The position numbers and the translations under genes were made by a program. The notes under the pieces were generated by a model, which was not told the origin of the DNA, searched no databases, and was given only the letters and a program-made list of their open reading frames with translations. From Candidatus Gastranaerophilales bacterium (GTDB lineage: Bacteria; Cyanobacteriota; Vampirovibrionia; Gastranaerophilales; Gastranaerophilaceae), in contig CALVEJ010000012.1 in NCBI GenBank assembly GCA_944326535.1, forward strand, positions 1-37,818: DNA of 37,818 nt, given 5' to 3'. This document shows positions 8,004-25,495 of the stretch, piece by piece. Positions within the stretch are counted from its first letter, which is position 1, and each line of letters opens with the position of its first letter.

Positions 8004-9305
8004 GTGACAAATTTGGAACAAATGGCTCAGAACGCAAAACTTGCATCTTATACACTTTCTTCATTGAATACGCTTACAAAAGACAGCGTTCTTCTTGCAA
8101 TTGCCGACAAACTTGAACAAAACAAAGATATTATTATGCAAGAAAATCAAAGAGATCTTGAAGAAGCAAAAAAAATGCTTGATGATGGAGCTATTTCCCT
8201 GAGCGTTTTTAACAGACTGAAGCTGGATGAAAACAAAATGAGGGATATGATACAGGGAATAAGAGACGTAAAAAGACTCGAAGACCCTGTAAATAAAAAG
8301 CTCTGGGCAATGGGGCTTGATACGGGATTGGACTTGTACAGAGTCAGCTGTCCTATTGGTGTTATCGGTGTTATTTTTGAAGCAAGACCGGATGTCATTC
8401 CACAGATATGTTCTCTTGCAATAAAATCGGGAAATGCTGTTTTGCTTAAAGGCGGCAAAGAAGCTTATTACACAAACGTTATTTTGACAAAGCTGATAAA
8501 AGATACTCTGAATGAATTTGAACAGTTCCCCCAAAATGCAATTAATCTGCTTTTTACAAGAGATGATGTCGCACAAATGCTAAAACTGGATAAATACATT
8601 GATCTAATTATTCCAAGAGGCGGCAATTCACTTGTACAGTATGTAAAAGAAAATACAAAAATCCCTGTTATGGGGCATTCTGACGGAATTTGCCATATAT
8701 ATATAGATGAAACTGCGGATTTGAAAAATGCGGCAGAGATTTGTGTTGATGCAAAAACGCAGTATCCCAGCGCATGCAACGCTGTTGAAACAATACTCGT
8801 ACATGAAAGTCTTTTGGAAAACTATCTCCCTCAGCTTGTTCTGGAACTTGAAAAGGCTAAAGTTACGGTAAAAGGCTGTGAAAGATGCAGAGAATTTGTA
8901 CCTCATCTAGAACTTGCAACAAAAGATGACTGGTCAACAGAATACGGAGACAAGACAGTTTCCGTAAAGGCAGTGAAAGATATTTTTGATGCAATAGCAC
9001 ACATAAACGTATACGGATCAGGGCACACTGATTGTATCTTGTCACAGGATCAGCAGAGCATAGATGTATTTATGAATCTTGTGGATTCTGCCGGTGTGTT
9101 TGCTAATGCTTCTACGAGATTTGCTGACGGGTACAGATACGGACTGGGTGCTGAAGTCGGAATTTCAACGGCAAAAACTCATGCAAGAGGGCCTGTCGGC
9201 CTAGAGGGGCTTGTTATTTACAAATACAAATTGTTTGGTTCCGGTCAGATTGTTGCTCCTTATGCTGACGGCAAAAAGACATTTATTCACCAGAGAATAA
9301 TATAA
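8004..9305 (+). CDS. proA: Gamma-glutamyl phosphate reductase
   Basis: ProA reduces glutamyl 5-phosphate with NADPH to glutamate semialdehyde, which cyclises towards proline. The 433 residues show the aldehyde-dehydrogenase-like fold: GVIGVIFEARPDVIPQI (about 113-129), LKGGKEAYYTN, LIIPRGGNSLVQYV, the catalytic Cys in YPSACNAVETILVHE, and the C-terminal TKTHARGPVGLEGL-type segment (here STAKTHARGPVG). The start is GTG at 8004 with AGAGGAT upstream. It follows proB by 44 nt. proC, the last proline step, is not in the window. Confidence 0.96.
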   Translation: MTNLEQMAQNAKLASYTLSSLNTLTKDSVLLAIADKLEQNKDIIMQENQRDLEEAKKMLDDGAISLSVFNRLKLDENKMRDMIQGIRDVKRLEDPVNKKLWAMGLDTGLDLYRVSCPIGVIGVIFEARPDVIPQICSLAIKSGNAVLLKGGKEAYYTNVILTKLIKDTLNEFEQFPQNAINLLFTRDDVAQMLKLDKYIDLIIPRGGNSLVQYVKENTKIPVMGHSDGICHIYIDETADLKNAAEICVDAKTQYPSACNAVETILVHESLLENYLPQLVLELEKAKVTVKGCERCREFVPHLELATKDDWSTEYGDKTVSVKAVKDIFDAIAHINVYGSGHTDCILSQDQQSIDVFMNLVDSAGVFANASTRFADGYRYGLGAEVGISTAKTHARGPVGLEGLVIYKYKLFGSGQIVAPYADGKKTFIHQRII

Positions 9306-24041: not shown

Positions 24042-24680
24042 ATGAGAAAAATCCTGTCATTATTTTTGGTTTTTTTGTTTACAGTGAACTCGGCGCTGGC
24101 TTTCTCTGTTGATACAACAGGCTGGGCGGATAAGCCGGAGCTTGTCAGTGTTAGCGCATCTGAGATGGATTTGAAAAGTGATCTGAAAAATGATTTCAGA
24201 GTATTTCAAACTACAATTACAAACAATACGGATGCTGCGGTAGATGTAATTATACCTTCCAACAAAATAGCAAATGATTCGGTTGAAAAACTTATAGCCT
24301 CAGGACTGTCTTTTAAAGAACTCATGGCTGTTCCGGCACAGCTTGCAACGGACAGCTACAAAGAAGATGTCGGACAAGGTACTGTGGCAAAAGCTCACAA
24401 AAGCCTGATTTGTGTTCTTGCAACAGCAGGTGCTGTTGCTGCCGGTGCTGGATTTTTGGGAATGTACCCGCAGCAAAAAACAGAGGAGTTTTTTGCTCAT
24501 AAAAAAATGAGAAAAGAGTACAAAAAGATTTCAAAAAATGTTATTTGCGATTTGACATTGCCGCCTTTGGAACAGGCTGATGTGCTGCTTTTTGTTCCTA
24601 TTGATTATCAAAATCCGCTTCTTATAATCAATTCCAGAAACGATGCCAGTGACGTGTATACCGACTATCATCAGCTATAA
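24042..24680 (+). CDS. Secreted or membrane-anchored unknown protein
   Basis: The 212-residue protein starts with a clear signal peptide: two basic residues, a hydrophobic core (ILSLFLVFLFTVNSALA) and a likely cleavage after ALA at about residue 21. The mature part begins with a region rich in Asp/Ser/Val and has a hydrophobic Ala/Gly-rich segment (ICVLATAGAVAAGAGFLGMY, about 124-143) that may span the membrane. After it come basic residues and a compact beta-rich tail. No family is recognised. It is divergent from the DMT permease and convergent with ybaK, with the twin structured element in between. Confidence 0.7.
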   Translation: MRKILSLFLVFLFTVNSALAFSVDTTGWADKPELVSVSASEMDLKSDLKNDFRVFQTTITNNTDAAVDVIIPSNKIANDSVEKLIASGLSFKELMAVPAQLATDSYKEDVGQGTVAKAHKSLICVLATAGAVAAGAGFLGMYPQQKTEEFFAHKKMRKEYKKISKNVICDLTLPPLEQADVLLFVPIDYQNPLLIINSRNDASDVYTDYHQL

Positions 24681-24695
24681 TATTTAATCTAGTGT

Positions 24696-24890
24696 CGTCT
24701 TCCCGTCCATTAAGGCTTGACATTTAGTCAACCCTTAACGGAGTCCTTGCTTCGAGCCTTCGAAGCTCAAAGACTCACCTTTTCAATATGTCACTCCAAA
24801 AATTCGTTTACGTCTTCCTCTCATAAAACCTGACTTTTAGTCAGCTTTTATTCGGCAGAGTGCTCCTTGTTACGAATTTTTTTTCGAACA
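24696..24890. repeat. Twin structured element, two diverged copies
   Basis: Two units start with CGTCTTCC at 24696 and 24811 (115 nt apart). In each, a stem of 6 bp, a C-C mismatch and 5 bp closes a 5-nt loop. Copy 1: TTAAGG-C-TTGAC (24710-24721), ATTTA, GTCAA-C-CCTTAA (24727-24738). Copy 2: ATAAAA-C-CTGAC (24823-24834), TTTTA, GTCAG-C-TTTTAT (24840-24851). The paired bases differ between copies but still pair. A second hairpin follows each (24741-24776 and 24868-24890), after a shared TCCTTG. The element fills the gap between convergent genes. It lacks the T-tract of a terminator and has no coding frame. It may be a structured RNA, a 3'-UTR element or a REP-like repeat. Confidence 0.7.
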
Positions 24891-24893
24891 TAT

Positions 24894-25367
24894 TTATTGT
24901 GCACAAATATCTGCTGTTGTTACTTTTATGACTTTATTCAAGTCTGAAAAACTCAGCTCAACCTGATACCCTATTTTTCCTGCACTGAAAATTATACTGT
25001 CAAAACTTTGAGCAGAAGCATCCGCAATGGTAGGATAGACTTTTTTCATTCCTATGGGGGAGCAGCCTCCGTGGATATAGCCTGTTACTTTCAGCAGATC
25101 TTTTTGTTTTATCATTTCTACGGATTTTTCTCCTGCCGCATGGGCGGCTTTTTTCATATCAAGTTCTTTTGCCACGGGTATCATAAATACATGATATTCT
25201 CCGGATTTCCCCTGTGTTACCAGTGTTTTAAAAACCATGTCCGGATTTTGCCCCAAAGCAGCCGCAACATCTACACCGCTGATTGCATCCGTATCGGCAT
25301 AACAATAGTGTTTATATGAAATTTTGTTTTTGTCCAAAATCCGCATTACATTTGTTTTGTAATCCAT
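24894..25367 (-). CDS. ybaK: Cys-tRNA(Pro)/YbaK-type deacylase
   Basis: YbaK hydrolyses cysteine wrongly attached to tRNA-Pro, protecting proline codons. The 157 residues show the family layout: an N-terminal helix, VFKTLVTQG strand-loop, a central KAAHAAGEK segment with the conserved Lys/Ala, and the signature GGCSPIGMKK near residues 100-109. I prefer the ATG at 25367, which has GGAG 5-6 nt upstream, over an upstream in-frame start at 25409. It is a lone gene, divergent from tkt. Confidence 0.9.
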   Translation of the reverse strand: MDYKTNVMRILDKNKISYKHYCYADTDAISGVDVAAALGQNPDMVFKTLVTQGKSGEYHVFMIPVAKELDMKKAAHAAGEKSVEMIKQKDLLKVTGYIHGGCSPIGMKKVYPTIADASAQSFDSIIFSAGKIGYQVELSFSDLNKVIKVTTADICAQ

Positions 25368-25495
25368 TTTTTCTCCGGTTTTGTTATTACATATATAAAT
25401 ATAATACAAATTCTTTTTATATTCTGGTTTCTAAATAACAAAAAAAGTGGTATTATTTTGTATACACGCTTGATACACAAATAGGATACTCCCAA

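Follow-up and report, generated by a model that had tools for sequence, protein, structure and literature searches.

A gene-less mobile DNA element with nested hairpins, dispersed in genomes of Candidatus Gastranaerophilales

Two similar hairpins in one 209-bp element

What are the two similar hairpins that lie 115 nt apart between convergent genes of a Candidatus Gastranaerophilales bacterium? Working from the window alone (here, the 37,818-nucleotide contig CALVEJ010000012.1), a first-pass annotation had described two tandem 115-nt units under selection for structure, and considered a structured RNA, a 3′ UTR processing element or a REP-like mobile repeat. Much of this description holds. The shared CGTCTTCC is present at 24696 and 24811, and the stems read TTAAGG-C-TTGAC/GTCAA-C-CCTTAA and ATAAAA-C-CTGAC/GTCAG-C-TTTTAT, each with a 5-nt loop. 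Both carry the identical C-C mismatch, which becomes G-G on the minus strand—the informative one. The stems are A/T-rich and neither hairpin is followed by a T-tract at 24696–24890, in line with the claim that this is no simple terminator. Likewise, every difference between the two stems is compensated, although the number of differing pairs had been put too high at about seven: four of eleven differ (outer pairs 1, 5, 6, and 7). The region is also far more stably folded than dinucleotide shuffles, with z-scores of −5.0 on the plus and −6.6 on the minus strand.

The tandem units themselves, however, dissolved on closer reading. Instead of two repeats, we find two hairpins lodged in separate hairpins of one element of 209 bp (Table 1), located 3 nt past the stop codon of a gene with a tRNA-editing domain. 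Its extent, given before as 24696–24890, is 24682–24890. What looked like a 115-nt period is the spacing of the two host hairpins, and there is no homology between the "second hairpins" assigned to each unit. In the window copy each host hairpin holds one core hairpin—core A sits in the loop of host hairpin 1—which accounts for two similar hairpins 115 nt apart, and CGTCTTCC is the junction of core with host hairpin.

Table 1 Features of the window element and its neighbours (positions in the window)
Feature	Position	Strand	Sequence	Remarks
Whole mobile element, 209 bp	24682–24890	minus	TGTTCGAA...CTAGATTAAAT	Empty site in closest relative; shared ends
Left end	24883–24890	minus	TGTTCGA	Common to all complete copies listed; flanks unrelated
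Host hairpin 1, subterminal at left end	24798–24881	minus		Arms 24872–24881 and 24798–24807
Core hairpin A	24817–24861	minus	ACTCTGCCGA-stem-TAAAA loop-stem-GAGAGG	Second copy of the first-pass annotation
Linker separating the two host hairpins	24776–24797	minus		Extra modules here in other copies
Host hairpin 2, subterminal at right end	24696–24775	minus		Outer stem 24770–24775/24696–24701; inner hairpin 24749–24766
Core hairpin, type B	24702–24748	minus	AGGACTCCG-stem-TAAAT loop-stem-GGACGGG	First copy of the first-pass annotation; inside host hairpin 2
Right end	24682–24692	minus	CTAGATTAAAT	
Aminoacyl-tRNA editing domain gene	24894–25409	minus		
Flanking gene without Pfam match	24042–24680	plus		

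Dispersed copies with fixed ends, and empty sites in a relative

A 15-mer from one of the loops recurs throughout the window's own genome. There, the whole element returned 38 similarity matches, five of them full length, and four further loci show its 209-bp arrangement at 98% identity. That the stems are alike by chance or through local duplication in tandem, as the wording of the first-pass annotation implies and two similar stems at a 115-nt distance might suggest, is therefore a negligible prospect given these four loci and the existence of single-hairpin copies; tandem duplication in particular was ruled out by copies with one or neither hairpin.

Matching of the ends increased the count in the same genome to about 45 copies of 111–322 bp, none of which contains a gene. 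Across the aligned loci the outer ends are fixed (TGTTCGA on the left, CTAGATTARAT on the right, minus strand) and the flanks unrelated; the two ends are not complementary, so terminal inverted repeats are absent. The right end alone gave 59 genome matches at ≤2 mismatches, compared with five in a reversed control. Genus-wide, the element measures 113–123 bp, with matches in 21 of the 36 genomes searched, so that relatives hold many more copies; G015 and G018 are rich in the element, and none was found in G010, G012, G021, and G022. In minimal copies of 114 bp (L395–L397, L401), a linker joins two hairpins: the first is A/T-rich and starts at a distance of 8 nt from the left end, and the second stops 9 nt short of the right end. 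Neither end-pairing in the own genome nor the loci examined yielded a longer, autonomous form with the same ends, and no transposase gene lay between such ends in the sequences searched.

We looked for empty sites in ~1.2 Mb of G020, the closest relative available. There, the same two convergent genes flank an orthologous gap without the element, and at further empty sites (L289, L018, L009, L291, and others) the flanks join within 0–5 bases. For L289, L018, and L009, the summed filled flanks equal the length of the empty site exactly, so that filled and empty sites differ by the element alone. Insertion therefore leaves the target site unduplicated, and the ends given above hold. The element is almost certainly mobile, and many of its copies are recent. 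The feature in the window is one copy of a gene-less mobile DNA element, both of whose hairpins are palindromic passenger modules. Of the identities initially considered, the REP-like mobile repeat was thus correct in kind, given dispersed copies and clean empty sites in relatives. A structured RNA or a 3′ UTR processing element as the primary identity was not borne out: the same site is empty in the closest relative, and the Rfam 15 covariance models gave no match in the window at gathering score. At a permissive threshold, tRNAs alone exceeded the gathering score among six related loci.

Core hairpins and the nesting of palindromic modules

The core consists of ACTCTGCCGA-stem-loop-stem-GAGAGG, with fixed boxes, a constant loop size, and variable stems. 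Its pattern CTCTGCCG-N(10–38)-GAGAGG has 29 occurrences in the own genome, compared with none in the reversed control. The covarying homologues on which the initial reading hinged do exist: cores are present in 40 of 59 relatives (with a single reversed-control match over all genomes together), and among 35 distinct cores both partners have changed in nine of the twelve variable-stem pairs. Their covariation score reaches 0.379, as compared to 0.036–0.093 when the partners are slid. Collection-wide, matches to the core boxes are mostly chance; those with a palindromic middle belong to Gastranaerophilales or gut MAGs. Two other identities for the core were set aside. CUGCC...GAGG had hinted at a ribozyme, twister or another, which found no Rfam support at permissive thresholds, and the core boxes do not seem to match the published R′/R″ boxes of an attC/integron site.

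The structural constraint postulated from two copies is hence real and extends far beyond them. Selection on structure, however, is not forced by it, because template switching in palindromes likewise produces compensated changes. Hairpins have been documented to arise and to be preserved by such switching (PMC8794818), and that the compensated stems derive mainly from it—by quasi-palindrome correction rather than structural selection—is a reasonable possibility, if short of probable. Changes in the stems are paired and complementary, and one-sided G-T intermediates are few: only nine of the 374 paired cells of the variable core stem are wobble G-T pairs, arguing for a DNA-level hairpin or template-switch correction and not for selection at the RNA level. 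Yet mismatches persist at fixed positions (G-G at columns 16/32; 46 unpaired stem cells), which implies that correction is incomplete, and box sequences and loop size are fixed as well.

Copies of the element differ from one another by whole palindromic modules, usually seated in one of the two hairpins and otherwise in the linker. The longer ones represent the minimal element plus modules: hairpin 1 may hold a core in its loop, hairpin 2 a type B core or a 90-bp multi-hairpin module, and the linker other modules (as seen in L405 vs. L396, and in L016). Host hairpin 1, an inverted repeat with compensated pairs genus-wide, has core-free versions in L010, L018, and L392–L397; the type B core of hairpin 2 is present in L011, L014, L015, and L019 and absent from L288, L292, and L392. 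Compensated pairs across the genus are found in host hairpin 2, too. The element grows as its own hairpins take up additional ones, and composite repeats growing in this manner can wrongly pass for conserved structured RNA.

Beyond the window copy, the ~90-bp module (GGAATCAGACCGGCACG...GTCTGATTACAAGACA) recurs within hairpin 2 at L403, L404, L406, L295, and L296. Some cores lie directly beside, or within the 3′ box of, another core (L375:8679–8719 and 9128–9167; L025:265–352), sites that we read as hairpin-in-hairpin stacking. A further multi-copy context in relatives, GGAGTGGTACAC-core-TAGCGAG (L038, L043, L046, L348), is probably another composite repeat.

Cores also occur outside the element. 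In the loci examined, 36 of 57 such cores lie ≤450 bp from a tRNA gene (24 upstream on the same strand, nine downstream on the opposite strand, and three in other arrangements), often in tandem with the repeated outer part of that gene. Arrays of this type were observed at L023, L025–L028, L030, L037, L041, L128, L367, and L375, next to tRNAs for Met, Phe, Leu, Ala, Pro, Lys, Thr, and others. Their repeated unit comprises the outer 10–20 nt of the tRNA gene along with its promoter or terminator, and the side of the tRNA sets the direction of the hairpin.

Target sites, mode of movement, and known relatives

The element inserts into A/T-rich intergenic DNA, and the 63 insertions analysed follow a loose A/T-rich tetramer. 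Among 52 sites, 88% have A at −4 relative to the left end, while the other positions are only A/T-rich, and the last five bases before that end are 88% A+T; the preference concerns the left flank only. When the 20 A3T3 hexamers were ranked for this flank, TTATAA (38/63) and TATAAT (35/63) led, with other permutations reaching up to 33, and no TTGACA signal was seen. A −10 promoter box as the target motif is therefore inseparable from plain A/T-richness, and we dropped it. To the right, 23 of the 63 sites show a Shine-Dalgarno sequence and an open start codon within 60 nt on the element strand, against two with the mirror arrangement (p = 2e-5). As these start codons are mostly 10–38 nt downstream, the element usually forms part of a leader.

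This orientation bias, together with the fact that the element is structured also as RNA and has compensated stems, is what a regulatory RNA might display—one spread by chance and kept by selection, serving as a 5′ UTR structure upstream of starts and as a 3′ UTR structure elsewhere. We deem this account quite improbable: the neighbouring genes are unrelated, the closest relative lacks the element at these sites, G-U/G-T pairs are nearly missing from the core stems though RNA-level selection would tolerate them, Rfam offers no match, and the exact ends go unexplained.

We rather take the element for what is probably a non-autonomous, REP/MITE-like transposon whose single-stranded hairpins would be acted upon in trans by a putative HUH-type enzyme; for the single-strand hairpin mechanism as such, we see the case as evenly balanced. 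Conserved subterminal hairpins, a feature of the IS200/IS605 type, are present at both ends, and the DNA fold of the element has a z-score of −4.9 on the top and −2.7 on the bottom strand. According to this proposal, the element would fold and move as a single strand, namely the top strand (here, minus), and an HUH/Y1-type transposase would recognise the subterminal hairpins, then cut and join, as in IS200/IS605 and REP systems. Modules within the hairpins would be tolerated because hairpin bases and element ends remain intact, and composites could go on spreading.

Absence of a target duplication and A/T-rich targets are, however, also compatible with a site-specific recombinase—a tyrosine integrase with loose A/T-rich targets, or a serine recombinase—that would use a double-stranded circle, leaving the hairpins incidental or regulatory. 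The related core arrays even lie at tRNA genes, the classic integrase targets. Against this stand the compensated changes that conserve hairpins at both ends, a flank preference confined to the left, the better folding of the top strand, and our failure to find a larger integrative form, and we regard a recombinase as unlikely.

Among known systems, IS200/IS605 elements (IS608, ISDra2) and their gene-less derivatives share subterminal hairpins, lack of duplication, and strand asymmetry with our element, and insertion 3′ of a short tetranucleotide may be a further common trait (PMC5934647). IS608 itself inserts precisely 3′ of a tetranucleotide and bears subterminal palindromes at both ends (PMC5934647). 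Unlike TTAC in IS608, though, the target here is loose, no guide pairing is evident, and the host genome has no Y1 transposase. As to guide tetranucleotides, inspection showed that the 4 nt ahead of the two hairpins differ and are not complementary to the target: CGAG, which precedes hairpin 1, cannot pair with AWWT, and hairpin 2 is preceded by no shared guide.

REP/REPIN sequences (RAYT = TnpA-REP, GTAG superfamily) resemble the core in being small, dispersed extragenic palindromes with a stem mismatch, many copies, and presumed single-strand mobility. In contrast, the core is without a GTAG tag, the flanks before ACTC varying among TGGC, TCTC, GTTG, GGAC, and GAGC; the element is, at 111–322 bp, bounded by defined asymmetric ends; and most genomes bearing it have no RAYT. 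The window copy also resembles CGTC-tagged REPs, including RPE-4 and RPE-6 of Rickettsia (PMC3733652), which likewise have CGTC at one palindrome end (CGTCTTCC) and no known dedicated transposase, and among which REPs nested inside palindromes have been reported (PMC3733652). In our case, however, CGTC belongs to the flank of the host element and not to the core, the cores at tRNA genes lack it, and the core stem spans 12 positions instead of 8–9. Bacterial MITEs (e.g., Nezha of cyanobacteria, NEMIS, ERIC) are similarly gene-less, multi-copy, and extragenic at 70–300 bp, whereas our element has neither terminal inverted repeats nor a target-site duplication.

The element fails the tested defining features of GTAG-REPs, CGTC-REPs, and classical MITEs, and we assign it to a new family, similar in general kind to REP or IS200/IS605-derived elements. 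It is doubtful that it constitutes a mobile-palindrome system separate from both REP/RAYT and IS200/IS605—one that would have its own enzyme, strand-specific insertion at leaders or exposed promoters, nesting, and a sister branch of cores building orientation-locked tRNA arrays throughout Gastranaerophilaceae. Palindromic repeats that carry no gene and have no known transposase have long been puzzling, CGTC REPs and RPEs being other examples. The present family provides unusually clean material: its ends are exact, empty sites are many, a minimal form of 114 bp exists, insertion shows a strand bias, and close relatives bear signs of recent activity. This makes the mover and the strand directly testable.

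With regard to the mover, our searches turned up no mobilising enzyme, any specific known transposase appears improbable, and the true mobiliser may have been lost from the draft assemblies. TnpB was present in one of 23 genus genomes and Y2_Tnp in none, with a silent control for the latter; TnpB, Y2, and reverse-transcriptase mobilisers, being rare or not found in the genus, were set aside. A phage or plasmid origin yielded no match, and viral-contig matches to the core boxes or the right end look like chance. Y1_Tnp proteins of the genus are RAYT-like (~178 aa), encoded in eight of 23 genomes and absent from the own genome (G000; at 93.4% completeness, a missed gene is possible). RAYT is accompanied by its own GTAG-REPs in several genomes of the genus, and most RAYTs whose flanks were read neighbour REPs of another sequence, GTAGGTTGGG...CCCAAC. 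Since these REP sequences differ from the element, and RAYT presence does not track copy number—several element-rich genomes have none—we rejected RAYT as the mobiliser.

Two RAYT loci deserve mention in their own right. At L349:1200–2010 of G002, beside tRNA-Phe, a RAYT-like gene with its own GTAGGTTGGG REPs occupies the very tip of a core hairpin, apparently an insertion into the hairpin loop. At L344 of G001, tandem repeats 3′ of the RAYT gene combine a tRNA-3′-like sequence with CTCGAACA-TTTAGATTAG, which resembles the element's two ends joined.
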